Below the pieces are notes generated by a model that saw nothing but the letters and a program-made list of their open reading frames with translations, did not search any database and was not told the origin of the DNA. From assembly GCA_938002255.1 (NCBI GenBank), contig CALLAL010000016.1:1-64000 (forward strand): a DNA stretch of 64,000 nucleotides, given 5' to 3'. Positions 27,569 through 60,235 of the stretch are shown here, one piece after another; position 1 is the first letter of the stretch; every line of letters begins with the position of its first letter. The position numbers were made by a program, and so were the translations under genes. This stretch comes from an uncultured bacterium. GTDB lineage: Bacteria; Desulfobacterota; BSN033; UBA1163.

Positions 27569-27569
27569 T

Positions 27570-28109: not shown

Positions 28110-28138
28110 AGGTTCTTGGTGAAAGAAGAGGATGGAGG

Positions 28139-29299: not shown

Positions 29300-29365
29300 C
29301 CCTCTTCCCCTTATCGCAGAGGAGGGGATCTGGGGTTCAAATATTCAAGATGAGGACTTATAGAA

Positions 29366-32449: not shown

Positions 32450-32609
32450 AGAGAGAGACAAGGAAAAAGAAACCATTGGGGATGGATCAAAGAAAGAAAC
32501 GGGACGATTCATGATTCAACTCTGAAAGTTCATCCTTCTGCTCCCGGCGATGGTTGGTTTGGCCCTCAATGGCCATTTGATTCGTTTCTCATTAAGGAGT
32601 CGAGAAAAA

Positions 32610-33452
32610 ATGAGTGCCCTTCAAAAGTTTAAGCCAAGGATCATCAGCTTCGTATGCAACTGGTGAGGGTACGGGGCTGCGGACCTGGCTGGAGTTTCCA
32701 GACTTCAATACTCGAACGAAATTAGAATTATACGCATGATGTGTACCGGGAGGGTAGATTTTACCTTCATCTTTCGTTCCTTCGCAAAACGAGCGGATGG
32801 CGTTTTTATCGCCGGTTGCCGCCTGGATGAATGTAAATATATTACCCATGGTAACTACCACACCCTGAATACGGTGCTTCTCACCAAAAGGCTGATGGAA
32901 TACTTTGGATTGAATCCAGATCGATTGAGAATCGAATTTATGTCCTCTGCTGAAGGAGGACGTTTTGCAGAAACCGTGAATGATTTTGTGAAACAGGTGA
33001 GATCGATCGGGCCCCTGGGAAAGAGTGAGGGGTTAGACGAAGGGGAATTGACTTCCAAACTGAATCAGGTAACGACTCTAATTCCTTATATCAAGATTGC
33101 CAAAAAGGATAAACTTTCCTCTCAGCTCAAAAACCCTGACTTGTGGGACCAGCTCTTTACACGAGAGGAGATCGATGCGTTATTTCGTGAATTGCCTTCC
33201 TACTATATTGATCCTGAAAAGTGTCAAGCCTGCATGACTTGCGCCAGAAGGTGCCCTGTCGAGGCGATTTCAGGCGGGAAGAATCTGATCCATATCGTCG
33301 ATCAGGAGAAGTGTATTAAATGCGGGACCTGTTTGGAGGTCTGTCCTCCTAAATTCAGTGCCGTAACGAAGCTCATTGGACAACCTGTTCCTCCCCCTGT
33401 GCCGGAGGAAAAGAGGACCATTGTCAGAAAGGGGAAGGGAAAAGAGAGTTAA
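32610..33452 (+). CDS. bamF: MvhD-like subunit BamF with a selenocysteine codon
   Basis: A 280-residue protein if TGA at 32664-32666 is read as selenocysteine. The frame runs from ATG 32610 (AAGGAG upstream) through FVCNW, then Sec, then GYGAADLAGVSRLQY, exactly the CNWCxYxxADLAG motif of MvhD/hydrogenase delta subunits with Sec for Cys. The MCTGRVD motif and a GCRLDECKY block follow, then a C-terminal 2[4Fe-4S] ferredoxin (CQACMTCARRC, CIKCGTCLEVC). MvhD proteins bind a [2Fe-2S] centre and pass electrons to HdrA. BamF with Sec is known from Geobacter and Desulfococcus benzoate degraders. Without readthrough the N-terminal cluster motif would be lost. Confidence 0.92.
32664..32701 (+). promoter_or_regulatory. 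UGA selenocysteine codon and SECIS-like hairpin in bamF
   Basis: After TGA at 32664-32666 the stem CTGGA at 32689-32693 pairs with TCCAG at 32697-32701 around the loop GTT. The stem is short, begins 22 nt after the codon and has an apical GU, in keeping with bacterial SECIS elements; flanking bases may extend it. A structure prediction would settle the exact fold. Confidence 0.6.
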
Positions 33453-33517
33453 AGGGATTGGGAAACCTTTAAGGCTAAGCCTCTTCAGATCAATGGGTTG
33501 GGAAGGGAGATTGATTT

Positions 33518-35539: not shown

Positions 35540-35626
35540 CGATGAACATTAAACGACCAACAGGGAAGAGTAAACCGGTCATTTGGTCTGGTCCATCATC
35601 CATCGTTCTTAGGAGAGGAGTTGAAG

Positions 35627-36421
35627 ATGAATACGATTGTCTGTGTCAAACAAGTTCCTGATCCAGAAATTCCCCCCGCTAAATTTAAGATTGATCCCGA
35701 AACCAAAAAGGTGGTTCCTCCTCCGGGCGTACCGCCTGTTATCAGTGTCTATGATGAGAGGGCCGTAGAGGCTGCCCTGCGCCTTAAGGATAAACACAAA
35801 GGGAAAATCACCGTGATCAGCGTGGGAGCCGGGAAAGTATCTGATGTGGTTCGTCATGCACTCTCGATGGGAGCGGATGAAGGTTTTGTGATCGAAGATG
35901 GGGCCTTTGAAAACTTGGATAGTTTTGGGACAGCCACTGTCCTTAGCAAAGCCATCCAAAAAATTGGCGGGTATGATTTGATTTTATGCGGTCGTCAGGC
36001 TGCCGATTGGGGAGCGGGTCAGGTGGGGTCCATCCTTGCTGAAATTCTTGGTATTCCGGTGGTGACCTTTGCCTGTGGTATAGAGGCAGTAGATAAAAAA
36101 CTGAGGGTCAGGCGGGTGGTGAAGGATGGCTTTGAAATTCTGGAAACGCCAATGCCAAGTTTGGTGACCGTGAGCAGTGAAATTGGATTGCCGCGCCTTC
36201 CAGCCGGGATGAGCTTGATGCTGGCTCGGAAGAAGCAGATTCCTGTCTGGAAACCACAGGATATTGGTCTTGATCTTTCGGACCTGGACAAAGAAAAGGC
36301 CCACACAGAAATTATTGGTCTCTCGATTCCAACCCGAAAGAAGGAGTGTGAGATCATCACAGGGACGACCCCCGCAGAGGCTGCCATCCAATTAGCTGAA
36401 AAATTGAGTCAGTTGTTCTAA
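35627..36421 (+). CDS. etfB: Electron transfer flavoprotein beta subunit, bam-linked
   Basis: A 264-residue ETF beta. It carries the MNTIVCVKQVPDPEI start, the VISVYDERAVEAAL segment and CGRQAADWGAGQVGSILAE. ATG 35627 follows AGGAGAGG at good spacing; a TTG two codons earlier is less likely. It differs clearly from the etfB at 22891 (for example NPFDEFALEEAL becomes SVYDERAVEAAL), so the pairs are not a recent duplication. It probably serves a different acyl-CoA dehydrogenase or a different quinone partner. Confidence 0.93.
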   Translation: MNTIVCVKQVPDPEIPPAKFKIDPETKKVVPPPGVPPVISVYDERAVEAALRLKDKHKGKITVISVGAGKVSDVVRHALSMGADEGFVIEDGAFENLDSFGTATVLSKAIQKIGGYDLILCGRQAADWGAGQVGSILAEILGIPVVTFACGIEAVDKKLRVRRVVKDGFEILETPMPSLVTVSSEIGLPRLPAGMSLMLARKKQIPVWKPQDIGLDLSDLDKEKAHTEIIGLSIPTRKKECEIITGTTPAEAAIQLAEKLSQLF

Positions 36422-36516
36422 TGGAGGGACCTTCATTCAAAAGGTTTTGGAGATGCATCAAATGTGGGAAGGCCAACCAGCCATCCCGATGATCGAATTA
36501 AAGGAGGGGCGATTCA

Positions 36517-37518
36517 ATGGACGGTTATCAAGGGGTATTGGTTTGCGGTGAATTAGCTGAGGGGAAACTGGCGCCTATTACAATAGAACTCCTCGGAATA
36601 GGTAGAAAGCTTGCCGATGAATTGGGGGAAAAGGTAAGCCTCCTTTTAATGGGAAACCCGATTGGACATCTGGGGCAGGAGGCAATTGCCTACGGTGCGG
36701 ATCAGGTCTTTGTGGCGGAAGATCCTCTCTTGGAGGTCTATAATTCTGATGCATACACCTACCTTATGGCTGACCTTTGTCGCAAAATAAATCCCTCCAT
36801 TGTGCTTTTTGGTCATACGGATATGGGGTGTGATTTGGCACCTCGGCTCAATGGACGATTGGGGGGAGGACTCACTATGGACTGCCTCACTTTATCCATT
36901 GACCCGACCACAAAACGACTCATCTCAACCCGTCCAGTTTTTGGGGGTAATGCCCATGCTACTCTAATGTCCAAGTCAGCAAGACCTCAAATGGCGACCT
37001 TAAGGCAGAAGATTGTTGCACCCGCAGAAAGAAATGACTCCCGAAAGGGGGAGATCATTCCTGTGGAAGGAAAGATCGACCCTTCAATCATTAAGATGAA
37101 GGTTGTTGAGCGCCTCAAAGAAGAAGTAGAAGGAGTAAAGCTGGAAGATGCTGAAGTGATTGTGAGTGGTGGACGAGGAATCGGGAGTGCTCAAAATTTT
37201 AAGATGTTACGGGAATTGGCAGATCTTTTAGGAGGGGCTATAGGGGCCACACGGCCTGCCTGTGACGAAGGATGGGTTCCGGCCTCGCTCCAGATTGGAC
37301 AGAGTGGAAAAGTGGTCAGTCCCAAACTCTATATTGCTGTGGCTCTTTCCGGAGCGATGTCACATATCTCCGGTTGCTTAGGCTCCAAGGTGATCGTTGG
37401 AATTAATAAGGATCCCGAAGCCAATATTTTTAACGTAGCTCGCTACGGGATTGTTGCTGATTATAAGGAAGTGTTACCAGCATTGATTTCAAAACTGAAG
37501 GAACGATTGTCAAAGTAA
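36517..37518 (+). CDS. etfA: Electron transfer flavoprotein alpha subunit, bam-linked
   Basis: A 333-residue ETF alpha with the C-terminal FAD domain intact (SGGRGIGSAQNFKMLRELAD, GGAIGATRPACDEGW, IGQSGKVVSPKLYIA, SGAMSHISG, NKDPEANIF). It has a strong AAAGGAGGGG ribosome site and ends the forward operon. The next genes face it from the minus strand. Confidence 0.94.
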   Translation: MDGYQGVLVCGELAEGKLAPITIELLGIGRKLADELGEKVSLLLMGNPIGHLGQEAIAYGADQVFVAEDPLLEVYNSDAYTYLMADLCRKINPSIVLFGHTDMGCDLAPRLNGRLGGGLTMDCLTLSIDPTTKRLISTRPVFGGNAHATLMSKSARPQMATLRQKIVAPAERNDSRKGEIIPVEGKIDPSIIKMKVVERLKEEVEGVKLEDAEVIVSGGRGIGSAQNFKMLRELADLLGGAIGATRPACDEGWVPASLQIGQSGKVVSPKLYIAVALSGAMSHISGCLGSKVIVGINKDPEANIFNVARYGIVADYKEVLPALISKLKERLSK

Positions 37519-48094: not shown

Positions 48095-49444
48095 GTGATC
48101 CTGATGACCCACCATTCTGGCGAATCCCATGGAATTCTTGGAGCTCAATTGGCTGCAAGCTTTTTCCAAAAAAGACTTTCGCTCCCTTCCAAGGTAATTG
48201 GCGTTGAAAGAAATTTTTCTAAAGAAAAGCTCCTTCAATACTTAAAAGACTATTACCAGGGCAAAGAAAGCATCATTGCCTTTTCGCACCTCTGTGGAAG
48301 GCGAGATTTGATCGAATTGATGAAGGAGTTAAAAGGAAAAGGGTTTATAACGCTTCTGGGAGGGCCGCAGGCTAAACAGGATTACGAAGGAGAGCCAGAA
48401 ACTGATCTTTATCCACATCGGTTCAAAGGATTGAAATCGATCCTCGACATCACCTATCAAGGTCCTGTGGATGGGTTTTGCACGGAAGATTTTCTAAAGA
48501 GAGGGGTTCTTATCGAACATCCATGGACTCAGGATTTATTTGTCGAAGTCGATTGGTCAAATCTATACACCTTTTCTGATTGTCTCAAAAAAACAGAGGT
48601 TCGTATCGGCCAGGTCCTGCAGGCCATAGGATGTCCATATAGCGGTACACAACAGACGGTCAGCCTTCCCCCACCGGTGAGTCTTCCGAAGAGAGAAATC
48701 GGGGAAGTCGAGGTCAGGAGTGATGGGTGCATCTTCTGCGATGTTTCCAGAGATAAAGGATTCCAAGGGGTGTTAAAGCCACATGAGGTTATTCGGCAGA
48801 TCGAGCGATTACCAGAGTTCGAGGGGAGTAAAATCCCCTTTGAACTGATTGATGAGTATCCTCTTCGTTCTCTTGGGAACGTGTTAGATGAGGTGGCCCA
48901 TTGCCACATCAAACTCTCTCAAATCAACCTGGTCTGCCGGGTGGATGATATTAATCGCCATAGCGCTGTTCTCCAGGAAATCCTTTTTAGAGCAAAAGAG
49001 CAGGGGATCAAGATCATGTTTGCCTCTATCGGCTTTGAATCGTTTTCAGACCGGCTATTACAATATTTTTGCAAAGGCATTACCCTAAGCGATAGTGTTC
49101 AGTGCGTGGAAACCCTCCGTCGTCTTAAAAATCGATTCGGAAACCATCTTCTTTACCGGAGGGATGAAGGAGCCCATCATGGATTTATTCGGCCCACGCC
49201 CTGGGATGATGGGGAAACGATGCGGGAGATGGACAAACATATCTTTCTCTATCGGCTTTTCGAAGATATTCTTCCAAACCACAGTACCCCTCTCATCATC
49301 CATCATGCTTCTTTTCTCGGAGATTGGATTCGGGAGATCGAATCAAAGACCAACATTACCTTTGGACGGGAGGGAACTTGGATCGAATGGTGGAATCCGT
49401 CTTCCGATGGATCAACCTCTCCCCGAGTTGAAAGTTCACAATAG
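48095..49444 (+). CDS. Radical-SAM/B12-like protein lacking the usual cluster motif
   Basis: I do not recognise a named family. The 449-residue protein resembles a cobalamin-binding/radical SAM methyltransferase-type layout. An N-terminal Rossmann-like half has HSGESHG, SIIAFSHLCGRRDL and LLGGPQA. A middle part has GCPYSGTQQ then SDGCIFCDVSRDKGF, where a radical SAM CxxxCxxC would be expected; only CxxC is present. The C-terminal half has barrel-like strands (INLVCRVDDIN, IMFASIGFESFSDRLLQYF). It starts with GTG at 48095. It stands 70 bp after the SDR and its stop codon overlaps an operator. Function is unknown. Confidence 0.6.
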   Translation: MILMTHHSGESHGILGAQLAASFFQKRLSLPSKVIGVERNFSKEKLLQYLKDYYQGKESIIAFSHLCGRRDLIELMKELKGKGFITLLGGPQAKQDYEGEPETDLYPHRFKGLKSILDITYQGPVDGFCTEDFLKRGVLIEHPWTQDLFVEVDWSNLYTFSDCLKKTEVRIGQVLQAIGCPYSGTQQTVSLPPPVSLPKREIGEVEVRSDGCIFCDVSRDKGFQGVLKPHEVIRQIERLPEFEGSKIPFELIDEYPLRSLGNVLDEVAHCHIKLSQINLVCRVDDINRHSAVLQEILFRAKEQGIKIMFASIGFESFSDRLLQYFCKGITLSDSVQCVETLRRLKNRFGNHLLYRRDEGAHHGFIRPTPWDDGETMREMDKHIFLYRLFEDILPNHSTPLIIHHASFLGDWIREIESKTNITFGREGTWIEWWNPSSDGSTSPRVESSQ

Positions 49445-49450
49445 TGAACT
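49433..49450 (+). promoter_or_regulatory. Palindromic operator 1, likely IclR site
   Basis: AGTTCACAATAGTGAACT is a perfect 7-bp arm palindrome with a 4-bp centre. It overlaps the stop codon of the upstream gene and lies 28 bp before the -35 box of the AOR promoter. It is the exact reverse complement of operator 2 at 49543. Confidence 0.75.
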
Positions 49451-49478
49451 CCTTTGGGGTTGCGTTAAAAAATAATGC

Positions 49479-49507
49479 TTGACAAAAAATTAGTATTAGT
49501 TTAATAA
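49479..49507 (+). promoter_or_regulatory. Promoter of the zinc-ribbon/AOR/ferredoxin operon
   Basis: TTGACA at 49479-49484 and TAATAA at 49502-49507 with a 17-bp spacer. The promoter lies between two copies of the same palindrome. The next gene starts at 49633 after a leader of about 120 nt. Confidence 0.75.
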
Positions 49508-49542
49508 TCAATTAAAGTTCTGTTTTGAAAAGGGGATGAGTC

Positions 49543-49560
49543 AGTTCACTATTGTGAACT
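49543..49560 (+). promoter_or_regulatory. Palindromic operator 2, likely IclR site
   Basis: AGTTCACTATTGTGAACT, a perfect palindrome with arms identical to operator 1, lies about 30 bp downstream of the predicted transcription start. Two sites flanking one promoter suggest repression by DNA looping or a block to elongation. Confidence 0.75.
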
Positions 49561-49632
49561 CCCATCCATGGCAGGACTAAACAGATCTGCCTTTTGACCT
49601 ATTAGCATTTATAATCAGGAAAGGGGGTTCTT

Positions 49633-49899
49633 ATGGGAATTGAAAATGAAGGACTTTCAACTGCTGAGAGCTTGCGTAAAACGCGAACCTACGGACAGGT
49701 AAGATGCCACAACCCGAGTTGTATGGGAAGGCTTCAACCCGAACGCGGAGCCAAACAGGTAAAATGTCCTGTCTGTGGGTGTGAGTTCCGCGTGGCTTGG
49801 GTCAAGGAAGGGTTCCCCCGGATCAGGGGGCCCGTATGGGACGTAAACAAACGGATTGCAGAAGAGGCATTCGAACGAAAAATGAAGGAGGAAAAATAA
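49633..49899 (+). CDS. Small zinc-ribbon protein (88 aa) before the AOR
   Basis: A short protein with a zinc ribbon, CHNPSC and CPVC at about residues 26-50, flanked by basic stretches and a C-terminal charged helix. It has an AAAGGGGG ribosome site and ends 1 bp before the AOR gene, so it is coupled to it. I do not recognise a named family. It could help assemble or regulate the AOR complex, or bind nucleic acid. Confidence 0.75.
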   Translation: MGIENEGLSTAESLRKTRTYGQVRCHNPSCMGRLQPERGAKQVKCPVCGCEFRVAWVKEGFPRIRGPVWDVNKRIAEEAFERKMKEEK

Positions 49900-49900
49900 G

Positions 49901-51841
49901 ATGGCTTTAGATCGAAAAATCGCCTATATCGATCTCTCCACCGGCAAGATAGAGATCAAACCGATTCCAATCGACATACGAAGAAAATTCCTTGGAGGTC
50001 GGGGATTGGATGCTTACCTGCTTTACAACCACACGGAGAAAGGCATTGATCCTTTAGGACCCAAAAACACCATCATGGTCAGTGGAGGACTTTTGACTGC
50101 TACTCTGGCTTCTGCGACTGCCAGAACCCATGTGATGGCGAAATCTCCTCTGGGAGGCATGGTTGGAAGCTGTAACATGGGAGGGTTCTTTGCACCTGAA
50201 CTGGCCTGGGCAGGTTTTCATCATCTCGTCATCAAAGGAAAAGCGGATAAGCCGGTTTATCTCTGGATTCATAATGGAAAGATTGAGATCCGAGATGCCA
50301 AAAATCTCTGGGGCAAGACCGTGACCGACACCCAGTGGGCTATTCGAGAAGAATTAGGGGATGATGATATCAAGAGTCTGGTCATTGGCCCGGCCGGAGA
50401 GAATCTGGTCCGATTTGCAAACGTGATGACCGGCATCAAGAATTCAGGAGGGAGAACGGGGATGGGCGCGGTGATGGGCTCAAAGAATCTGAAGGCCATT
50501 GCCGCTCGAGGAACGATGGACATTAAGATCGCTTATCCAAGAGAAGCCCTTGAATATAACAAACGTTTTATCGATCAGATCACAAGCGCTAAAGTGAATC
50601 AGACTCAGGGAACCCTCGGTACGCCTTTTATTTGGGGAGCCACCAACTCCTGGGGGGGGATTCGATGCAGAAATTTTCAATACAACCAGCAACTCTATTG
50701 TGATGATATTGAACCCGAAGCCATTGATGAAGCCTGTACGGAGACAATAGGTCCTTATCACATGACAGGATGCTTCGGTTGCCAGGTTCATTGCCGAGCT
50801 AAATATAAGATCCCAACCGGTCCTTACGCTGGGGTTTATGATGAAGGTCCGGAATATACCTCGCAAGGAGCCTTCTGCGGGGAACCGGATTGCCGAAGCC
50901 TTGAGACCCTTTTGGTGGGAAACCACCTGGTCAATCAATTTGGGATGGACAATCTCGAGACCGGAAGTCTGATCGCCTGGGCTATGGAGCTTTACGAACT
51001 GGGAATTCTCACCGACAAGGAGACCGACGGGTTGGATTTACGGTTTGGCAATGATGAAGCCCTCTTGGAGATGGTGAAGAGGATTTGTTTCAGGAAAGGG
51101 TGGTTGGGTGATACCTTAGCAGAAGGAGGTCTCATTGCTTCAGAAAGGATTGGAAAGAACTCCTTTGACTATCTGATCCAGGTGAAAGGGGTGAGTAACC
51201 TCCATTCAGACGAAAGAGCTACGCCTGCCCTTGCTCTGAATATCGCTACCGCATCCCGTGGTTCTGACCACCTGAGAAGCCGACCCGCGATTGATCTTTA
51301 TCATTTGCCCGTGGAGGTAATGAGAAAAATCTATAGCAGTCCGGTTCCTTATGACGGACCCTTAAGCTCCGAACATACCGAATATATTGGAAAGCCGTGG
51401 CAGGTGTTCTGGCATGAGAACTGTTATATGGCGGTGGACTGCTTGGGCATCTGTAAGTATCACACGACCTTCTTGGGAGCGACCCTTCCCAATTTTGAAG
51501 ATTGGTCAAAGGTAATTTACCTCAATACGGGGTTGGAGTTTACCCCGAGAGAGATCTGGGACATAGCCGAGCGGTGTAATATGATTGAGAGGCTCTTTAA
51601 CCTGCGTGAAGGGTTGAAGAGAGAGGATCCTTATCGAGGGGATCTCCTCAATCACCGTTATTTTGATGAACCGACCCGAAGAGGGGCACCCGATGTGGTC
51701 GGTCGGGTCATCGATCGGGAAAAGTTCAGAAAGATGGTGGATGAATTTTATGAATACAAAGGACTTGACAAAGAAGGAATCCCAAAGCCTGAAACGCTCA
51801 AGAGACTCGGTTTAGACAAAGAACCTTCACACTTACTTTAA
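49901..51841 (+). CDS. Tungsten aldehyde:ferredoxin-oxidoreductase-family enzyme (third AOR)
   Basis: A 646-residue AOR-family enzyme. GGRGLDAYLLYNH starts the pterin domain, GGRTGMGAVMGSKNLKA is the pterin-binding motif, and [4Fe-4S] ligands are CFGCQVHC at about 291-298 with another Cys in LGICKYH. It lacks BamB signatures, so it is not a second benzoyl-CoA reductase, and is probably an aldehyde or related oxidoreductase. It sits between a zinc-ribbon gene and a polyferredoxin gene, in an operon with likely IclR sites, and faces an operon with an NrfD anchor, a ferredoxin and sulfur-carrier genes. Confidence 0.93.
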   Translation: MALDRKIAYIDLSTGKIEIKPIPIDIRRKFLGGRGLDAYLLYNHTEKGIDPLGPKNTIMVSGGLLTATLASATARTHVMAKSPLGGMVGSCNMGGFFAPELAWAGFHHLVIKGKADKPVYLWIHNGKIEIRDAKNLWGKTVTDTQWAIREELGDDDIKSLVIGPAGENLVRFANVMTGIKNSGGRTGMGAVMGSKNLKAIAARGTMDIKIAYPREALEYNKRFIDQITSAKVNQTQGTLGTPFIWGATNSWGGIRCRNFQYNQQLYCDDIEPEAIDEACTETIGPYHMTGCFGCQVHCRAKYKIPTGPYAGVYDEGPEYTSQGAFCGEPDCRSLETLLVGNHLVNQFGMDNLETGSLIAWAMELYELGILTDKETDGLDLRFGNDEALLEMVKRICFRKGWLGDTLAEGGLIASERIGKNSFDYLIQVKGVSNLHSDERATPALALNIATASRGSDHLRSRPAIDLYHLPVEVMRKIYSSPVPYDGPLSSEHTEYIGKPWQVFWHENCYMAVDCLGICKYHTTFLGATLPNFEDWSKVIYLNTGLEFTPREIWDIAERCNMIERLFNLREGLKREDPYRGDLLNHRYFDEPTRRGAPDVVGRVIDREKFRKMVDEFYEYKGLDKEGIPKPETLKRLGLDKEPSHLL

Positions 51842-51909
51842 ATCATAATCTCTCCCTCCCCCCTTGAGGGGAAGGGTGAGGGAGGGGGTAACGAAAGGAG
51901 AAATTTCTG

Positions 51910-52419
51910 ATGGAACCCATGGGTAAAGTGCTTGCAATCACTCCAGAAAAATGTACCGGCTGCAGGCTTTGTGAGTTGGTCTGCTCGGTCTTTCATGACG
52001 GGGTTTCCAATGCTGCCCGCAGTCGCATTAAAGTCGTAAAATGGGAATCGGAAGGGATCTATGTCCCGATGTCCTGTCAGCAATGCCAGGATGCTCCGTG
52101 TATGATCGTTTGTCCTGTGAAAGCGATTTCTCGGGATGAGGCCCTGAATCGGGTGATGGTGAATCATGATATCTGTATTGGCTGCCGCTCCTGCGTGGCG
52201 GTCTGTCCTTTTGGTGCCATGGGGTTTAATGTCATCGATCGGAAAAATTTTAAGTGCGACCTCTGTGATGGAGATCCACAGTGTGTTCGTTTCTGCGAAG
52301 TGAAGGCAGTGGATTATGTGGATGCAAATCAGGTGAGCCTCGCCAAAAAGAAGGCGGCTGCCGAAAAAATTACTGCCGCTCAGAGACAGGCTGTTGCCTT
52401 AGCCAGCGAATCCCACTAA
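51910..52419 (+). CDS. Polyferredoxin partner of the third AOR
   Basis: A 169-residue protein with four Cys clusters: CTGCRLCELVC, CQQCQDAPCMIVC, CIGCRSCVAVC and CDLCDGDPQCVRFC, followed by a charged Ala/Lys-rich helix. It is similar to the ferredoxin at 53587 on the other strand, sharing RSRIKVVKWES and the YVDANQ...AKKK tail. It probably accepts electrons from the AOR. AAAGGAGA ribosome site; a strong terminator follows. Confidence 0.9.
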   Translation: MEPMGKVLAITPEKCTGCRLCELVCSVFHDGVSNAARSRIKVVKWESEGIYVPMSCQQCQDAPCMIVCPVKAISRDEALNRVMVNHDICIGCRSCVAVCPFGAMGFNVIDRKNFKCDLCDGDPQCVRFCEVKAVDYVDANQVSLAKKKAAAEKITAAQRQAVALASESH

Positions 52420-52456
52420 ACTAAAAGGATTGACAAACCTTCAAGATATGCATTTT

Positions 52457-52494
52457 AAAAGGGCTAACTCCCGGGAGGGGGTTAGCCCTTTTTT
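52457..52494. terminator. Bidirectional terminator between converging operons
   Basis: GGGCTAAC at 52461-52468 pairs with GTTAGCCC at 52481-52488, with a C/G-rich loop that can extend the stem. There are A's on the left and T's on the right, so it can stop transcripts from both directions. Confidence 0.9.
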
Positions 52495-52766
52495 CATCCG
52501 CCAGCGAGCATGAGGATCAGGTGAATTTCATCGCCGTCCTTAACAGGTTTCACCAGTTCGTTGGGATGGGCACTGGCGTGGTTAAGGTAAACCTCAACCA
52601 CGTTATGGAGTTTATCTTTTTTCGCAAAAAGGGCCTTTTCCATCCCTGGAAATTGTTGAACAAGATGATTTAAGCATTCTCCAACCGTATTTCCTTCCAC
52701 AAGAACGATCTCCTGGCCGTCCGTAAAGCGACGATGGGTCGCATGGATATGCACTTTCACCGGCAT
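52494..52766 (-). CDS. MoaD/ThiS-type ubiquitin-like sulfur carrier
   Basis: A 90-residue beta-grasp protein ending in the LMLAGG tail, whose C-terminal Gly-Gly would be adenylated and thiocarboxylated by the E1-like enzyme encoded next. It is either MoaD for tungsto/molybdopterin synthesis or a dedicated sulfur carrier. Ribosome site AAAGGA. It sits 21 bp after the E1-like gene. Confidence 0.9.
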   Translation of the reverse strand: MPVKVHIHATHRRFTDGQEIVLVEGNTVGECLNHLVQQFPGMEKALFAKKDKLHNVVEVYLNHASAHPNELVKPVKDGDEIHLILMLAGG

Positions 52767-52787
52767 TGTTCGATCCTTTCTATTCTA

Positions 52788-53549
52788 TCACTCAAGAGAT
52801 TCACATGCGGTTGAAGCAACAGGTATTCCGCAGTGATCACACTCTGGATTACGATAAACTGTAAATTCAGTGAAAAGAGCATCTCGTCCATCATAGAGGA
52901 GTAACCGATTGGTAAGCAGTCTTCCGATTCCCAAAAAATACTTAATGACCTCCGTGGCCTGAACACAACCGATGATAGCGGGGGTCACTCCAAGGACAGG
53001 AATTTTCTCCTCTGGGATTGACCCTCGATAGATACATCTCAGACAAGCTGTCTTTCCTGGCAGGATGGTCATCACCCGACCTTCAAACCCCTGCACTGCT
53101 CCATGGAAAAAGGGGATGTTTTTTTGGATGGCACAACGATTGAGAAGATAGCGGGTGGGCAAATTGTCCATGGCATCCACGATCGCATGGCATCCTTCTA
53201 CCAGAAGGGAGACATTGGATTCGGATAGGGTTTGATCAATCGTTTCGATCTCGATACTCTGATTCAATTTTTTTAATTTCTCCCGGGCGGAATCAACCTT
53301 TTTCCTTCCGATATCTTCTTCCCAATGGAGGACCTGGCGGTTCAGGTTGCTGAGAGAAACCGAATCATGGTCCACTAATCGAATTCGTCCGATTCCTGCT
53401 GCTGTAAGGTAGAGAGCTATTGAAGAGCCAAGCCCACCGACCCCTGCGATCAATACTCGAGAACGTTTAAGCTTTTCCTGGCCCTCAAGCCCGATCTCCG
53501 GGATCATGATCTGACGGTCGTATCTTTCCTTTTCCTTAGACGTCAGCAC
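52788..53549 (-). CDS. E1-like adenylyltransferase (MoeB/ThiF family)
   Basis: A 253-residue ThiF/MoeB/HesA protein. The nucleotide motif is GVGGLGSSIALYL near 36-48, followed by LVDHDSVSLSNLNRQVLH, DAMDNLPTRYLLN and two zinc CxxC pairs (CLRC and CDHC). It activates the C-terminal Gly of the MoaD-like protein next to it. AOR enzymes need tungstopterin, so these two genes may supply cofactor for the locus. GTG start; weak ribosome site. Confidence 0.92.
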   Translation of the reverse strand: MLTSKEKERYDRQIMIPEIGLEGQEKLKRSRVLIAGVGGLGSSIALYLTAAGIGRIRLVDHDSVSLSNLNRQVLHWEEDIGRKKVDSAREKLKKLNQSIEIETIDQTLSESNVSLLVEGCHAIVDAMDNLPTRYLLNRCAIQKNIPFFHGAVQGFEGRVMTILPGKTACLRCIYRGSIPEEKIPVLGVTPAIIGCVQATEVIKYFLGIGRLLTNRLLLYDGRDALFTEFTVYRNPECDHCGIPVASTACESLE

Positions 53550-53586
53550 GTCTTGTGTTATCTCCCTCTCCCTTTTAAAATTCCGG

Positions 53587-54075
53587 TTATCCTCTTGCCT
53601 GTTTTAAAAGGTCTGCTAATTTATGAGCCGCTTCTTTCTTTTTAGCCATGTTGGCCTGGTCTGCATCCACGTAGGAAATGGCTTTGACATGGCAGAAGGT
53701 GGCGCACTGCGGGTCACCGTCGCAATAGTCACATTTTACGGTCACCCGTTCTTGGTGATCAAAGAAGGGTTGTCCGAACGGACAGGCCACAATACAGGTT
53801 CGGCAACCGATGCAGAGATTTTTATTAATGACTACCCGATTGTCTTTTTCAGGTTCCCTGTGGCAAGCTTTGGTGGGGCAGACCTCCACACAGTAAGCCA
53901 CCTCGCAGTGGTTACAGGTCATGGGAAGGTAAATTCCTACAGATTCCCATTTTACCACTTTGACCCTGGAACGGCTCGGGTTGCTTGCTCCCGTATGATA
54001 GACCGAGCAAACCAATTCACATTGACGGCATCCTGTACATTTTCGTTGATCCACGACCAGGACTTTATGACCCAT
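53587..54075 (-). CDS. Polyferredoxin next to NrfD
   Basis: A 162-residue ferredoxin with four Cys groups (CTGCRQCELVC, CNHCEVAYCVEVC, CIGCRTCIVAC, CDYCDGDPQCATFC). It is a close relative of the plus-strand ferredoxin at 51910. It starts 17 bp after the NrfD gene (ATG with CGGAGG) and would bridge soluble electron carriers and the membrane anchor. Confidence 0.92.
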   Translation of the reverse strand: MGHKVLVVDQRKCTGCRQCELVCSVYHTGASNPSRSRVKVVKWESVGIYLPMTCNHCEVAYCVEVCPTKACHREPEKDNRVVINKNLCIGCRTCIVACPFGQPFFDHQERVTVKCDYCDGDPQCATFCHVKAISYVDADQANMAKKKEAAHKLADLLKQARG

Positions 54076-54092
54076 GTCGACCTCCGTCCATT

Positions 54093-55103
54093 TTAGAAAC
54101 TCTTAGGGGCCGTTTTCAAGCCATATTGAAATTCAACTAAACGCTGCATCGGAATTTGATCTTTAATACCGGCCTGAAGCAGACCCAGCCTGAGAAAAAA
54201 TCCACCTGTCAAGAGGGAAAGTCCAGCCACCCCTAATAGAAGAGGACTCTGATAATATTTTGAGATCCACTCAAGAACAAGTGGAAAGAGGAAGCCGAGA
54301 ACGATAATGCCTTGCCAAAAGATGTATCGTAATTTTCCTGAAATCAGAAGTCGCACCGATTCTTTTCCCTGTTCTGAGGATCGATATCTCCCCCATAGAA
54401 AGATATACAGAATCACTCCTTCGATAATGATCAAAACCTGTTCCATGACCAATAATCCCTGAATCGCTGGGCTGTCATAAGAGAGGAGGCCTGTTCCAAG
54501 GGTCGATAAAAGGATGGACATAGAACCGGTTGAAAGCGCTGAAGCCAGAAAAAGGATTGGGAGGAAAGGGGTATTCCATAAGGGAACAGATTTCGTCGCT
54601 TTTAAGAGAATACCGGTATAAAGGGCCGTTGCAAAAGCAAACACGAAGGCGATAAACTCTACGAAGAACCATACAGAGGATTCAGGCCGAAGCCATTGGA
54701 AGGGAAAAATTGACTTGGCAAACACCAAAAGTCCCAAGACGATAAAGACCGAAAGGATGATAAAGCCCCGAGCCACCCAAGATGTCCGTGGGTTGAGACA
54801 AGCGTACATGAACCGCCACTTGATTCCCAGGTCCAGGATCAGAAAAGGTGCGCCGATGGAAACCATGATGGGGCCCCAAAGAAGTGGGGCTTTGGAGAGA
54901 TAAAAATGGATTCCGAAAAGATCAAAACCAAACGTGGGCAATAGATTGAAAGGGACTCCTATCCAGAGAAGGAGAATCCCGATAACGTAAGAGCCTGCGC
55001 CCATCCCCGCTAAGTAGAGATAGATAGCAATGATTTCCCCCCATTCCTTTTGAGGAGAGCACACCTTTCTTGGGAAGATCGACGGGGCTGTGGGGGTGTT
55101 CAT
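54093..55103 (-). CDS. NrfD-type membrane anchor of the AOR locus
   Basis: A 336-residue polytopic membrane protein with about nine or ten hydrophobic segments. The start WGEIIAIYLYLAGMGAGSYVIGILLLW is the NrfD-family pattern. It should exchange electrons with menaquinone. It is the first gene of the minus operon, preceded by a degenerate palindrome. ATG with AGGAGAAAG ribosome site. Confidence 0.87.
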   Translation of the reverse strand: MNTPTAPSIFPRKVCSPQKEWGEIIAIYLYLAGMGAGSYVIGILLLWIGVPFNLLPTFGFDLFGIHFYLSKAPLLWGPIMVSIGAPFLILDLGIKWRFMYACLNPRTSWVARGFIILSVFIVLGLLVFAKSIFPFQWLRPESSVWFFVEFIAFVFAFATALYTGILLKATKSVPLWNTPFLPILFLASALSTGSMSILLSTLGTGLLSYDSPAIQGLLVMEQVLIIIEGVILYIFLWGRYRSSEQGKESVRLLISGKLRYIFWQGIIVLGFLFPLVLEWISKYYQSPLLLGVAGLSLLTGGFFLRLGLLQAGIKDQIPMQRLVEFQYGLKTAPKSF

Positions 55104-55126
55104 AATTCTTTCTCCTGATCCGAAGT

Positions 55127-55144
55127 AGTTCTTTCTGATGAACA
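55127..55144 (-). promoter_or_regulatory. Degenerate palindrome before the NrfD operon, possible IclR site
   Basis: AGTTCTTTCTGATGAACA keeps the spacing of the operators at 49433 and 49543 but loses two bases from one arm and changes three in all. It is placed 23 bp before the NrfD start codon. This is a weaker claim than the other sites. Confidence 0.4.
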
Positions 55145-55217
55145 GTCAAAACTAAATTTATCATAGCATATTCCGATACCTTGTCAAGATTTATTTGAGA
55201 AAATAATAAAATCCCTG

Positions 55218-55247
55218 TTGACAAAGGAAATGAAAATCTGATATCTA
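55218..55247 (+). promoter_or_regulatory. Candidate iclR promoter
   Basis: TTGACA at 55218-55223 is a perfect -35. A weak -10 such as TATCTA lies 18 bp further, just before the operator at 55257. Confidence 0.5.
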
Positions 55248-55256
55248 TAGTTGGTT

Positions 55257-55274
55257 AGTTCAATATGGTGAACG
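55257..55274 (+). promoter_or_regulatory. Palindromic operator adjoining the iclR start, likely autoregulation
   Basis: AGTTCAATATGGTGAACG matches the arms of the operators at 49433 and 49543 at 12 of 14 positions with the same 4-bp centre. It ends one base before the iclR ATG, so binding would block the start of its own gene. Confidence 0.7.
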
Positions 55275-55275
55275 C

Positions 55276-56058
55276 ATGAAAAAGACGTCGTACTCCGCCC
55301 CTTCTGTGAAAAAGGCTTTTAAGATTCTTCAGACCGTTGCCGATTCTCCATCCGGTCTGGGAGTGAGTGAACTGGCTAAACAATTAGGCATCGGGAAAAG
55401 CACGGTCCATGGCATTACAGCCTCGCTGGAAGAGATGGGTGTTCTGGTCCGGAATCCCATTGATAAGAGATATACTGTCGGATATACCCTTCTGGAATTG
55501 GGAAGGAAAACCTACGGACGAATTGAATGGCGGGAAGTTGCCAAAACCCCGATGAGGCGGTTTATGGAAAAAGTAGGAGAGACGATTTTTCTGGGAATCA
55601 TGAATGGAGATCACATCACGATCTTGGATGTTGTGGAATCCCCAAATGAGATGAAGATTACTTCTCCCCCAGGAACTCGTCTACCCTTGCTTGCAGGGGC
55701 AACAGGGAAAGCCTTTCTCAGCCTGCTCGATGAAAAGGTGGTCAAGGAAATTGTTCGAAGGGTTGGGCTGGTAAGATATACCTCAAAGTCAGTGACCGAC
55801 CCCAAAAAATTTTTAAGAGAGGTCCAGGAGACGAGAAAAAGGGGATATGCCATTGACGATGAGGAATATCTCCTTGGGGTAAGAGCCGTTGCGGCGCCCA
55901 TCCAGATCTCCTCTCACCCGCCCGTTGCCATCTGGGCTGTAGGATTTACTTCAAGCCTTAATGATCAGAAGATGGAAACAGCCATTTCAGAAATTCAACT
56001 GGTAGCCTACGAAATCAGCCGTGCCATCGAAGGATGGGTCACAAAAGGTATTATTTGA
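55276..56058 (+). CDS. IclR-family transcriptional regulator
   Basis: A 260-residue IclR protein. The winged helix-turn-helix covers about residues 10-65 (SVKKAFKILQTVADSPSGLGVSELAKQLG), and the effector domain covers about 80-255 with LPLLAGATGKAFLS. It likely binds the palindromes at its own start and around the AOR operon. The gene overlaps the converging dehydrogenase gene by 8 bp. IclR proteins often sense aromatic or organic acids; the ligand is unknown. Confidence 0.92.
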   Translation: MKKTSYSAPSVKKAFKILQTVADSPSGLGVSELAKQLGIGKSTVHGITASLEEMGVLVRNPIDKRYTVGYTLLELGRKTYGRIEWREVAKTPMRRFMEKVGETIFLGIMNGDHITILDVVESPNEMKITSPPGTRLPLLAGATGKAFLSLLDEKVVKEIVRRVGLVRYTSKSVTDPKKFLREVQETRKRGYAIDDEEYLLGVRAVAAPIQISSHPPVAIWAVGFTSSLNDQKMETAISEIQLVAYEISRAIEGWVTKGII

Positions 56059-57127
56059 AGGAACGAAGGATCCTCACCACATCATCCCCAACCTCATGGG
56101 TTTTCGAACGACCTCCAAGGTCCATGGTCCTCATTTTCTTTTCAGCCAAATTCTGTTTGACAGCCAAATAGAGAAGTGCCCCGGCTTCTGCTTCTCCCAA
56201 ATAATCCAGCATCATCTTAGCCGTCAAGATCGCTGCGATGGGGTTGGCAAGACCTTTTCCTGCAATATCGGGGGCAGAGCCATGGACAGGATCAAAAAAT
56301 CCAGGATAGGTTCTGTCCTGGGGATTGAAACTTGCTCCGGGTGCTAACCCCAATCCCCCTGTCACAGAAGCCGTGAGATCCGAGAGGATATCAGCGAAGA
56401 GATTGGAGGCAACAATCACATCATAGCCTTTTGGATTCCGGACCACATCCATACAGGCGGCATCAATCAGTTTGGATTCAGTCCGGATGTCGGGATATCG
56501 GGAGGAGATTTCTTTGAAGATTCTATCCCAGAGGACCATCCCATAGCGCTGGGCATTCGACTTGGTGATGGAGGTCACCTTTTTTCTTCCCTTCTCTCTT
56601 GCGAATTCAAAAGCAAAAGTGATGATCCTTTCGATTCCTTTTCTTGTGAATAGGGCACTTTGAATAGCCTGCTGATGTTCTCCAATCCCAACAATTCCGC
56701 CGATGTTTGAATACTCTCCTTCTGTATTTTCTCTGACGACGACGATATCGATTTCTCCTTCAGAGATGTGGGTCAAGGGAGATTCCACTCCAGGAAAGAG
56801 GTATACTGGACGGAGCCCCACGTAAAGGTCAAACTCAAATTTGATGGGAAGCAAAAGCCCATGAAGCGTGAGATCATCAGGAATTCTCGGATCTCCAACA
56901 GCTCCCAAATAGATGGCATCAAATTCTTTGAGGATGTCCAGTCCATTTTCAGGCATCATCTTTCCATGCTGGAGATAATAGTCGCTTCCCCAGGGAAAGT
57001 TTTGGAACTCAAATTGAAGACTTTCATAGATTTCTGAAAGGGCATGAAGACACTTTACCCCTTCGGAAACCACTTCTTTTCCAATTCCGTCCCCTGGAAT
57101 CACGGCAATCCGATATCGTTTATCCAT
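56051..57127 (-). CDS. Tartrate/D-malate dehydrogenase-like (isocitrate-isopropylmalate dehydrogenase family)
   Basis: A 358-residue NAD-dependent decarboxylating dehydrogenase. The first motif is IAVIPGDGIGKEVV, followed by WGSDYYLQHGKMMPENG, LRPVYLFPGVESPL, ENTEGEYSN, and the HGSAPDIAGKGLANPIA region. The WG-DYY--HG--MPE-G pattern is that of the TtuC/DmlA tartrate or D-malate group rather than LeuB. ATG 57127 is preferred over the upstream frame start since homology begins at RYRIAVIPGDG. It lies 5 bp after the transporter gene, suggesting that the imported acid is its substrate. Confidence 0.85.
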   Translation of the reverse strand: MDKRYRIAVIPGDGIGKEVVSEGVKCLHALSEIYESLQFEFQNFPWGSDYYLQHGKMMPENGLDILKEFDAIYLGAVGDPRIPDDLTLHGLLLPIKFEFDLYVGLRPVYLFPGVESPLTHISEGEIDIVVVRENTEGEYSNIGGIVGIGEHQQAIQSALFTRKGIERIITFAFEFAREKGRKKVTSITKSNAQRYGMVLWDRIFKEISSRYPDIRTESKLIDAACMDVVRNPKGYDVIVASNLFADILSDLTASVTGGLGLAPGASFNPQDRTYPGFFDPVHGSAPDIAGKGLANPIAAILTAKMMLDYLGEAEAGALLYLAVKQNLAEKKMRTMDLGGRSKTHEVGDDVVRILRSFK

Positions 57128-57132
57128 AGATT

Positions 57133-59079
57133 TTATGAACGTTTCCCTCGTTTCATCCATTGATAGATCGTGACGATGATCAACAAACCAAATCCGACAA
57201 GGTCTGTCTCCCACCCGGGTTTGATCAGAGCCAGGGCAGCTACCAGAAGAAGGACCCTTTCATAAAGACTGGCTCCCTTCAAGAACCATCCTTGAACGGC
57301 AGCAGATAAAGCCATTGTTCCCAATAAACCTGTCAAGACAGCAAAAGCAATTTCCATTGGGGTTCCAACGAGAACCATCGCAGGGCCATAAACAAACATA
57401 TAAGGAACGAGGTAACCTGCGATCGCAAATCTCATTCCTTCCCATCCAACATCCCATGTTCTTGCTCTGGCAATAGCTGCGGCTGCAAAGGAAGCCAGAG
57501 CCACAGGAGGAGTAAGGGCCGAGAGACAGGCAAAATAGAAGATAAAGAGATGGGCAGCGATCGGGGGGACATTGAATTGCCTTGTTAGAGCTGGAGCCAG
57601 AACCGAGGCGGAGATGGCGTAGGCCGCTGTGGTTGGCATTCCCATGCCGAGAACGACCGCAATGATCATAGAGAAAATGAGGGCAATGAAGAGGTTTCCT
57701 CCAGAATAGCTAAAGATGATCATAGCAAATTTCTGTCCCAATCCGGTCTGTGTTAGCACTCCGACGATGATCCCTGCTGCTGCACAGGTGGCTGCAATCT
57801 CAATGGCCCCACGGGCCCCCTTGGCAAGAGTTTCGACGATGTTTTTAAAGCCAAGTCGGCTTTCCTTCCTGATCCAGCTTACCAGGATTAAAGAGATGAT
57901 GGCATACATGGCTGACCGATAAGGAGAGTACATGAGGACCATCAGGGAAATACCAAGGACCACAAGGGGAACAAGAAGATAGCCTTTATCGAGCATCACG
58001 GTTCTGAACACGGGTAGCTCTTCCTTTTTCAGTCCCCATAAACTATTGGAAGCAGCATAAAAATCGATCATCCAGTAAGCGGCAAAATAGTAGAGAGCCG
58101 CAGGAATGACTGCTGCGAGCGCGACCTGTGCATAGGGAATTCCTAAGATCTCTGCCATCAAGAACGCGCCAGCACCCATAACGGGGGGTACAATTTGTCC
58201 GCCTGTCGAATTCATTGCTTCAATGGCACCTGCCACATGAGGTCTAAATCCAGCATTTTTCATCATCGGGATATTAAAAACACCGTCCACGACGACGTTT
58301 GCAACAGAAGAACCCGACGCCGTCCCAATGAAGGCACTTGAAACGATGGAGACCTTTCCCGGTCCTCCACGAAAGCGACCCGCGGCACATCGCGCTAAAT
58401 CGACAAAGAACTTTCCAGCACCGGAGACCTCAATAAAGGCACCAAATAACACAAAGAGAAAGATATAGTGTGCTGAAGCTAAGATGGGAAGGCTTAAGAT
58501 ACCATCCAAACTGAAGAGATACGTCATCATCCTTGGCCAGGAATATCCCCGATGATAGAAGAGGCCCGGCATATGATTTCCGAAATACCCGTAAAGGATG
58601 AAGAGAGCTGATAAAATGGCAAGAGGCCAGCCTGTTGCCCGCCTTGCCATTTCCCAGACAGCAATGACAAAAAGGGTAGAGAAGAAGAAATCCCACGCAT
58701 TAGGAACGACGCCCACGCGATAAATCCAGTCCTCAAAAACGATAAAAATATAGATAGCAGGCGCCACGATGAGCAGAATGAAGAAGTAATCGATGGGGTG
58801 GATTTTGTTACGAGGCGATTTCTTCCAGCCGGGGACTAAGGCGAAGACCAGAACCCCTGCAAAAACGACATGCATGGTCCGAAAATACCATGGATCAATG
58901 GCGCGGATGGTCAAGACATAGATATGGAAAAAAGACATAGCGAGGCCAATGACAAAGATTGCCTTAGAAAGGATTCCTGTGAGTTCTCTAACGCCTGAAA
59001 CCTCGATATCTTTGATATGCATCTCTTCGAGTTTCTTCTCGACCTCTTTGATGTCAACCACTTTCTCTTCATTCATCAT
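57133..59079 (-). CDS. TRAP transporter fused permease, TAXI type
   Basis: A 648-residue membrane protein combining the small (DctQ-like) and large (DctM-like) TRAP permease parts, with many helices and the GTASGSSVANVVVDGVFNIPMMKNAGFRP and GMGMPTTAAYAISA motifs typical of 4TM/12TM fused permeases. It uses the ion gradient to import an organic acid bound by the receptor encoded upstream. Ribosome site AAGGGGAG. Confidence 0.93.
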   Translation of the reverse strand: MMNEEKVVDIKEVEKKLEEMHIKDIEVSGVRELTGILSKAIFVIGLAMSFFHIYVLTIRAIDPWYFRTMHVVFAGVLVFALVPGWKKSPRNKIHPIDYFFILLIVAPAIYIFIVFEDWIYRVGVVPNAWDFFFSTLFVIAVWEMARRATGWPLAILSALFILYGYFGNHMPGLFYHRGYSWPRMMTYLFSLDGILSLPILASAHYIFLFVLFGAFIEVSGAGKFFVDLARCAAGRFRGGPGKVSIVSSAFIGTASGSSVANVVVDGVFNIPMMKNAGFRPHVAGAIEAMNSTGGQIVPPVMGAGAFLMAEILGIPYAQVALAAVIPAALYYFAAYWMIDFYAASNSLWGLKKEELPVFRTVMLDKGYLLVPLVVLGISLMVLMYSPYRSAMYAIISLILVSWIRKESRLGFKNIVETLAKGARGAIEIAATCAAAGIIVGVLTQTGLGQKFAMIIFSYSGGNLFIALIFSMIIAVVLGMGMPTTAAYAISASVLAPALTRQFNVPPIAAHLFIFYFACLSALTPPVALASFAAAAIARARTWDVGWEGMRFAIAGYLVPYMFVYGPAMVLVGTPMEIAFAVLTGLLGTMALSAAVQGWFLKGASLYERVLLLVAALALIKPGWETDLVGFGLLIIVTIYQWMKRGKRS

Positions 59080-59111
59080 GCTCTCCCCTTTAAGTCAAAG
59101 TTTCAGAGCCT

Positions 59112-59159
59112 AAAAATGTGCGGATGCCGGAGTTGATTCAGCCGTGCATCCGCACATTT
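59112..59159 (-). terminator. Long hairpin with T-run between receptor and permease genes
   Basis: AAATGTGCGGATGC at 59114-59127 pairs perfectly over 14 bp with GCATCCGCACATTT at 59146-59159 around an 18-nt loop. Read in the operon direction (minus strand) the stem is followed by five T. It may terminate part of the transcripts or protect the receptor mRNA. Confidence 0.75.
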
Positions 59160-59187
59160 CTCAAAAAATAATTTTGGTTCATCCGGT

Positions 59188-60171
59188 CTATTTGATAATT
59201 AATTTATCTGGAATCTTGATTCCTTTCTCACGATAGTATTTTACAGCACCGGGATGGAGAGGAGTGGGGCTATAGACAATGGGTTCGGGTTTGGTCTCTT
59301 TGGCCGAGGCATGGGTAGCAATCAGGATGTCCACATTTTCAAAGGTCTTCTTGACCACTTCATAAACAAAATCCTCTGGAAGATCCTTATGACAGATCAT
59401 GAAATTCCAGACGGTAATCGTTTCAACATCATAGTCTTTATTGCTTTTGTAATAGCCTTTGGGGATGACTCCCGGAGCAAAGAGGGGATACTTGGCAATG
59501 AATTTTTCTGCGTCGGCTTTTGGAATACCAATCACGTTGATTTCATGAGTCGTTTCAACCTCATTAATCAGTCCCCAGGGTAGTCCAACGGACTGGCCAT
59601 TGGCATCGAGCATTCCGTCTTTGAGCTGGGAGTTGAGGTCTGAAGATCCTGCATTGACAATTCGGCCGGGTTTTACCCCTGCGGCTTCAAGGATCTTAGG
59701 CCAATAGGTGGCTGGCGTTCCACCTACAGGACCCACGCCTACGCTCTTTCCATTCAGGTCGTGAATGGTTTTTATCCCGCTCTTCTTTAAGGCATACATC
59801 TGAAAATAGGTAGCGTACATGGGAAAGATGACCCTGGTGTTTTGATGTTTCTTTCCTTTCGCCCAACCTTCACCCGTCCATCCTTCCCAAACTGGAGCGG
59901 CTGTCACTCCTCCAAAATCCAACTGCTTAGCATCTACTAACTGAGTGTTGTGAACAGGGCCCCCAGTTGTTTCGACATTTCCTGGAACTCCTACCTTGTC
60001 GTGCAGGAGTTTTGCAAATCCTCCCATCCAAACAAAATAGACGCCTCCCACTGGAGCGGCTCCAATCGTTACCGATTTGGGCCATCCCGGTTTTGGCTGG
60101 GCCTGGCACAGCCCAAAGGCAAAGGTCAAGCTGATAAGAACAAGGCTTGCAAGAATCAATAGACGCTTCAT
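59188..60171 (-). CDS. TRAP transporter TAXI-family substrate-binding protein
   Basis: A 327-residue periplasmic receptor with an N-terminal signal peptide (MKRLLILASLVLISLTFAF to about 24). It has the TAXI features GAAPVGGVYFVWMGGFAKLL and VGPVGGTPATYWPKILEAAGVKP. The start is ATG 60171, preceded by AAAGGAGG; a longer frame start lacks a ribosome site. First gene of the TRAP operon. Confidence 0.94.
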   Translation of the reverse strand: MKRLLILASLVLISLTFAFGLCQAQPKPGWPKSVTIGAAPVGGVYFVWMGGFAKLLHDKVGVPGNVETTGGPVHNTQLVDAKQLDFGGVTAAPVWEGWTGEGWAKGKKHQNTRVIFPMYATYFQMYALKKSGIKTIHDLNGKSVGVGPVGGTPATYWPKILEAAGVKPGRIVNAGSSDLNSQLKDGMLDANGQSVGLPWGLINEVETTHEINVIGIPKADAEKFIAKYPLFAPGVIPKGYYKSNKDYDVETITVWNFMICHKDLPEDFVYEVVKKTFENVDILIATHASAKETKPEPIVYSPTPLHPGAVKYYREKGIKIPDKLIIK

Positions 60172-60206
60172 TTGAAAACCTCCTTTCTGAGTTTGGTTAC
60201 TCGTAT

Positions 60207-60235
60207 TTTTTATCATTTTGGTTTTTTGTTGTCAA
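60207..60235 (-). promoter_or_regulatory. Promoter of the TRAP operon
   Basis: On the minus strand TTGACA at 60235-60230 and TAAAAA at 60212-60207 are separated by 17 bp, upstream of the receptor start. The IclR-type palindrome was not seen here. Confidence 0.5.

Follow-up and report, generated by a model that had tools for sequence, protein, structure and literature searches.

A palindrome with the features of an IclR operator links a WOR-family enzyme operon to an NrfD membrane module in an uncultured Desulfobacterota bacterium

Within a 64,000-nucleotide (nt) stretch of DNA from an uncultured bacterium of the Desulfobacterota (contig CALLAL010000016.1 of assembly GCA_938002255.1, positions 1 to 64,000; hereafter, the window), one palindrome recurs at two operons and at an adjacent gene for an IclR-family regulator. 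The plus-strand operon encodes a zinc-ribbon-like protein, a large subunit of the aldehyde oxidoreductase (AOR)/WOR family and a ferredoxin, FdA, and the minus-strand operon encodes an NrfD-family membrane protein, a second ferredoxin, FdB, an E1 enzyme and a MoaD-like sulfur carrier. We consider it likely, from sequence, that a local IclR-family repressor controls these genes as a three-part redox module, composed of the WOR-family enzyme, a ThiS/ThiF pair, and FdB with NrfD. The putative operator is conserved across many sulfate-reducing and related anaerobic bacteria, and this group of enzymes is found mostly in degraders of aromatic compounds.

Results

The full palindrome, AGTTCAC-N4-GTGAACT, is present in two exact copies (O1 and O2, Table 1) on both sides of the predicted promoter of the zinc-ribbon/AOR/ferredoxin operon, of which CTTGACA and most of the second hexamer are kept in 8 aligned relatives. 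A third copy, O3, has two changed arm positions and ends one base before the iclR ATG at 55276, and a degenerate copy, O4, stands before the NrfD gene, with four changes relative to the full 18-mer and only one relative to the core GTTCA-N6-TGAAC. The initial annotation of this DNA had placed four such copies here, and all of them were located. Chance palindromes can be ruled out on several grounds: (i) with up to three mismatches, the 18-mer occurs at 6 sites in the window, against 1.96 expected. (ii) Across all 3.27 Mb of the genome, exact copies of the 18-mer are confined to 49433 and 49543, and copies with two mismatches to three places, 55257 being one of them; the frequent unrelated copies that would have weakened the idea of a dedicated operator are thus absent. 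(iii) The exact core occurs in six places genome-wide, three of them within these 6 kb; the other three lie among genes without an obvious pathway link, their surroundings being judged by eye. (iv) The core is enriched in relatives, as described below. A terminator or RNA element was also rejected, there being no terminator-like signal and no matching Rfam family, and looping by helical phase is not claimed, since the spacing between sites varies from about 80 to 240 nt.

The regulator has the domains of the IclR family, and its candidate site has the group-1 form: the palindrome fits the published group-1 consensus GKTYCRYW3-4RYGRAMC (PMC8222616) save for its outermost bases. KSTVHG, in the recognition helix, hardly varies among 49 IclR sequences, and conservation is stronger in the DNA-binding part than in the effector domain. 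The usual position of the sites, behind predicted promoters and at the start of iclR itself, would make repression together with autoregulation the likeliest mode of control.

One scan for the large subunit yielded 77 loci, and in nearly all the complete ones the zinc-ribbon gene precedes it and a ferredoxin gene follows. We looked for the core, with no more than one mismatch, in the 400 nt that precede the zinc-ribbon gene, taking as controls windows of equal length drawn at random from these loci, and shuffled upstream regions. It was found in 60 of 72 loci (51 of them with two or more sites), compared with 7.4% of random windows and 1.4% of shuffled regions. Near the iclR start (-60 to +20) it is present in 38 of 48 orthologues against a background of 1.4%, and its position peaks sharply at 6 and 10 nt ahead of the start. 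How far it stands from the zinc-ribbon gene differs between loci, while its sequence is constant; had the whole region simply been inherited together, this pattern would not be expected. Furthermore, the operator is present in 28 of 29 genomes with an iclR orthologue (22 close and 7 divergent, presence being assigned by hand) versus 4 of 10 without one (Fisher p = 0.0004). The two operons do occur together in relatives, and the proposal that one palindrome connects the AOR operon, the NrfD operon and iclR has gained from the comparison: the site tracks the iclR orthologue across lineages and persists where the operons are unlinked. On this comparative evidence, the regulatory link between the palindrome, iclR and the two operons appears well supported.

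Of the 17 genomes in the window's family, 16 have an NrfD orthologue, as does one genome of a sister family, and in most of these it shares a contig with the AOR operon. All 17 orthologues have the site, which is nearly always the weaker GTTCTT..TGAACA form in one or the other orientation and follows closely on a conserved promoter; in one genome (G002) the contig with the NrfD gene is a different one from that with iclR and the zinc-ribbon gene (L135 versus L091), and the NrfD gene still has two sites. The NrfD protein of the window matches PF03916 at 102 bits, and the gene for the four-cluster FdB adjoins it 17 bases downstream, as expected of an NrfD/PsrC membrane subunit. In other lineages a different membrane protein, encoded between iclR and the zinc-ribbon gene, carries the operator. 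This substitute has four invariant histidines in its membrane part and two [4Fe-4S] motifs, and its best family match is TmcC, at 133 bits, which is below the TmcC cut-off of 240; for its predicted fold (predicted local distance difference test, pLDDT, 59) the best structural match was NarI, but with E above 0.1. Because two unrelated membrane proteins of quinone type share the operator, these comparisons argue for the quinone pool as the partner of the module.

The large subunit contains the AFOR_N and AFOR_C domains, and C288, C291, C295 and C494 are invariant in its orthologues. Its nearest solved structure is that of P. furiosus AOR (PfAOR), the residues for the tungsten-pterin and the cluster being kept, and the metal is probably tungsten. 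Aldehyde-oxidising AORs share the second-shell residues Thr243, Glu313, Tyr427 and His448 (PMC12096430, PMC13328260), Glu313 and Tyr427 having been suggested to serve in acid-base chemistry or in positioning (PMC12096430). In all 64 full-length orthologues of the present enzyme these positions are Thr, Thr, Ser and His (PfAOR numbering), so that Glu313 is replaced by Thr and Tyr427 by Ser. The protein therefore has the domains and cysteines of an AOR sensu stricto and lacks its second-shell set, and because the two changes are found in every full-length orthologue, "AOR" is better read as a family name, from which aldehyde activity should not be assumed. The gene calls of the initial annotation held in this locus, but "tungsten" and "AOR" are family names and not demonstrated activities, and the label "tungsten AOR" went too far for a protein in which two of the four residues are replaced. 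BamB (Thr, Lys) and YdhV (Val, Trp) are also without Glu313 and Tyr427. A canonical AOR-type large subunit encoded elsewhere in the window (7787-9589) keeps the Glu313, Tyr427 and His448 positions; a gene for a FAD (flavin adenine dinucleotide) oxidoreductase-like protein follows it at 9639-10922. In a tree the large-subunit group stands beside BamB and apart from YdhV, with long branches, and this placement is not relied on.

Across most of the loci found the large subunit is 76-95% identical, and the operator is kept over much of that range. Three loci labelled Aminicenantes, Fischerbacteria and Acidobacteria (L018, L041 and L059) have large subunits that are 77-83% identical, by transfer or binning error. 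One chromosome record (CP070746.1; L066 and L076) has the large subunit in two distant places, as residues 1-502 and 416-646, through rearrangement or misassembly.

Upstream in the window are genes for a 6-hydroxycyclohexenecarbonyl-CoA dehydrogenase and a 6-oxocyclohexenecarbonyl-CoA hydrolase, both above their NCBIfam cut-offs, which indicates a benzoyl-CoA-pathway setting. In a phylum sample of 395 genomes, the zinc-ribbon gene is present in 50, and the hydrolase of that pathway in 41 of these 50 carriers versus 63 of 345 non-carriers. Outside the window's own class the figures are 29 of 35 carriers (83%) versus 61 of 342 non-carriers (18%), uncorrected for relatedness, and 16 of the 18 families with the zinc-ribbon gene include a genome having both gene and hydrolase. 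As a control, 63 genomes with a close match to the window's canonical AOR were counted by hand: 17 have the hydrolase, and outside the own class about 12 of 56 do, no more than background. The reaction of the enzyme most likely belongs to anaerobic aromatic metabolism. The window also contains, at 25613-37518, what looks like a class II benzoyl-CoA reductase locus: a gene for a BamB-like large subunit with Hdr-like, FlpD-like and ETF-like genes behind it. A role in the use of acetaldehyde derived from ethanolamine is unlikely: 16 loci have a gene for EutA (PF06277) close to that for the AOR, yet 12 of the 14 such genomes searched lack EutB. Given the missing EutB, the EutA at L053:6457-7881 (467 bits) and those of the 15 other loci would be orphans.

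The features of the locus are collected in Table 1. The stop codon of the radical-SAM gene upstream (49442-49444) falls inside O1, and a radical-SAM protein of the same cluster was found in 25 AOR loci. In the zinc-ribbon protein C25, C30, C45, C48 and the stretch R65-G66-P67-V68-W69 are invariant, and its predicted fold (pLDDT 74) had no confident match in the PDB. Beside iclR (56051-60216) are a tartrate-dehydrogenase-like gene and a TRAP/TAXI transporter, kept in several relatives and without the operator. Genes that by eye resemble argD, kinase, argC and rimK genes lie between those for FdA and MoaD, i.e. between the operons, in L005, L011-L014 and L067. In L203 (1312-4118) MetF-like and MetV-like methylene-tetrahydrofolate reductase genes and a ferredoxin gene separate iclR from the zinc-ribbon gene, and the operators are on the iclR side.

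Table 1. Positions of the operators, promoters and genes of the locus within the window.
Feature	Position	Strand	Remarks
Radical-SAM protein, 449 residues	48095..49444	+	Upstream neighbour; Pfam Radical_SAM at cut-off, no NCBIfam family
Operator O1	49433..49450	.	Exact palindrome AGTTCACAATAGTGAACT; kept in relatives
Predicted sigma-70-like promoter, zinc-ribbon/AOR/ferredoxin operon	49479..49508	+	TTGACA-18-AATAAT; between O1 and O2
Operator O2	49543..49560	.	Exact palindrome AGTTCACTATTGTGAACT; downstream of promoter of zinc-ribbon/AOR operon
Zinc-ribbon-like protein, 88 residues	49633..49899	+	No Pfam or NCBIfam family
AOR/WOR-family large subunit, 646 residues	49901..51841	+	About 36% identity to P. 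furiosus AOR
FdA, four-[4Fe-4S] ferredoxin, WorS-like	51910..52419	+	No Tat or transmembrane signal
MoaD/SAMP1-like sulfur carrier	52494..52766	-	Ends in Gly-Gly
ThiF/MoeB-like E1 enzyme	52788..53549	-	GVGGLG, two CxxC
FdB, four-[4Fe-4S] ferredoxin	53587..54075	-	58% identity to FdA
NrfD-family membrane protein	54093..55103	-	8 transmembrane segments predicted by hydropathy
Operator O4, weaker	55127..55144	.	AGTTCTTTCTGATGAACA, GTTCTT..TGAACA type; just downstream of NrfD promoter
Predicted NrfD promoter	55160..55187	-	TTGACA-16-TATGAT; among 12 aligned relatives TTGACAA is invariant, TATGAT almost invariant
-35-like TTGACA of iclR	55218..55223	+	Invariant in 12 aligned relatives
Operator O3	55257..55274	.	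AGTTCAATATGGTGAACG, two arm changes; centre 10 nt before iclR start
IclR-family regulator, 260 residues	55276..56058	+	HTH_IclR and IclR_C domains

Discussion

In the model that we favour, and consider likely, the repressor would bind GTTCA-N6-TGAAC on both sides of the enzyme-operon promoter, the weaker site just downstream of the NrfD promoter, and the site over its own start, by which it would regulate itself, and it would be released by a metabolite, probably one from anaerobic aromatic degradation. Its targets would form (i) a WOR-family, probably tungsten, enzyme made up of the zinc-ribbon protein, the large subunit and FdA; (ii) a dedicated ThiS/ThiF-type pair for maturation of the pterin cofactor; and (iii) a quinone-linked membrane module of FdB and NrfD. 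Electrons would pass between the enzyme's substrate and menaquinone via FdA, FdB and NrfD. Repression rather than activation, tungsten, the formation of a complex, and the path and direction of the electrons are the parts of this model that we infer. More tentatively, as a possibility that may well prove wrong, we propose that the enzyme belongs to a highly conserved WOR subfamily of its own, altered in its active site, which would catalyse an undescribed non-aldehyde step of anaerobic aromatic degradation and whose electrons would be coupled to the quinone pool through interchangeable membrane modules (NrfD in one lineage, a TmcC-like anchor in others) recruited under one IclR operator.

Several points weigh against the favoured model. 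The effector and the sign of regulation are taken from the position of the sites. Outside the window's family, NrfD is part of the module in just one genome, of the sister family. Of 12 new loci from a separate phylum sample, just 2 have the site immediately ahead of the zinc-ribbon gene; an IclR profile search showed that several of those genomes carry an iclR orthologue further upstream, with genes between, and there the operator adjoins iclR. Ten of the 48 iclR genes have no site near their start; several Desulfotignum iclR genes have none, though the AOR operons there do, and four drafts have operators and no detected iclR orthologue. Finally, the family members are related, and the counts of loci and genomes are not independent events.

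Three other explanations were weighed. The enzyme could be an ordinary aldehyde oxidoreductase of aromatic degraders, converting aromatic or aliphatic aldehydes into acids, with NrfD merely replacing a soluble ferredoxin as electron sink. Its family, its kept cofactor residues, its likeness to PfAOR, the invariant Thr243 and His448, and the use of such an enzyme, AOR_Aa, by aromatic degraders (PMC6365974) all suit this idea, which we nevertheless find unlikely: Glu313 and Tyr427 are Thr and Ser in every full-length orthologue whereas the window's canonical AOR retains both, and the benzoyl-CoA pathway is tracked by the present gene set and not by that AOR. Electrons could instead run in reverse, from menaquinol or ferredoxin through NrfD, FdB and FdA into a low-potential reduction, for instance of an aromatic acid or CoA ester, as in BamB. 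The Thr that BamB also has at the Glu313 position, its place as tree neighbour (with the long-branch warning) and the strong benzoyl-CoA-pathway link are compatible with this direction, but His448, invariant in the present group, is missing from BamB, menaquinol donates electrons only weakly to a reaction of this kind unless energy is put in, and the window already has its separate BamB-like locus, so that we regard reverse flow as rather doubtful. That another regulator or an RNA hairpin accounts for the palindrome, with IclR as a bystander, is very improbable, for although IclR binding is deduced from sequence and O1 overlaps the end of the radical-SAM gene, the site lies immediately ahead of most iclR orthologues, accompanies the orthologue from genome to genome, fits the group-1 consensus and shows neither a terminator-like signal nor an Rfam family.

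The favoured model, of a module under a local IclR-family repressor, gives the search for the substrate of this subfamily a defined regulon, an altered active site and a pathway to look in, and the finding of two unrelated membrane electron modules under the same operator points to the quinone pool as partner.

Comparison with known systems

Only five of the 92 WOR clades in a 2026 classification have a known role (PMC13328260). The initial annotation knew of no described system with this combination, and that judgement stands in part. An AOR with its own sulfur-carrier pair is not new: WorX (ThiS-like) and thiF genes beside WORs have been described, as have Class II and the membrane-associated Class V WORs (PMC13328260) and AorABCDE with the MoaD-like aorD/aorE (PMC6365974). 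In the literature searched, which left subscription journals mostly outside and in which absence is not proof, we found no description of a WOR accompanied by NrfD, no WOR among the targets of an IclR regulon, and no IclR operator set before both a WOR and an NrfD/ferredoxin module.

The regulatory part resembles the IclR group-1 regulons (PMC8222616) in the form of the motif and in the site at the regulator's own start, and differs in spacing: 18-22 nt separate the tandem sites there, about 80-240 nt the paired sites here. On the membrane side, the protein that replaces NrfD resembles the Tmc/Hmc anchors (TmcC, HmcE) through its TmcC match, and the added ferredoxin and zinc-ribbon part sets the present systems apart.

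As for the enzyme, four relatives are relevant: (i) An operon of WorL and FdA, with no WorN, WorA, WorB or WorC, places it in Class II (WorL and WorS, with WorX/ThiF nearby; PMC13328260), with which it shares the large subunit, the four-cluster ferredoxin and the close ThiS- and ThiF-like genes; the zinc-ribbon protein, the FdB/NrfD module, the IclR operators and the altered second shell are additions. (ii) Class V (E. coli YdhYVWXUT; clade 41) is alike in outline, having a WOR, two ferredoxins and a membrane subunit, and YdhV is likewise without Glu313 and Tyr427. However, identity to YdhV is 27%, the membrane subunit is NrfD and not a YdhU-type cytochrome, and His448, lost in YdhV, is kept. 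Class V is moreover defined by a WorS with a Tat signal and/or transmembrane part (PMC13328260), whereas in FdA the first cluster motif begins at residue 15 with no signal or hydrophobic stretch before it. (iii) AorABCDE of Aromatoleum and Moorella (Class III; PMC6365974) shares the AOR family, a polyferredoxin and MoaD-like maturation genes; the present unit has no FAD subunit, has a membrane module instead, and has replaced second-shell residues. (iv) BamB of class II benzoyl-CoA reductase (Class IV WOR, clade 62) shares the AOR family, the aromatic-degrader setting and the Thr at the Glu313 position, but the large subunit is only about 30% identical to the window's BamB-like protein, keeps His448, and has no Bam complex genes (BamC-I) in its unit. 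We take the enzyme to be a variant within the WOR family.

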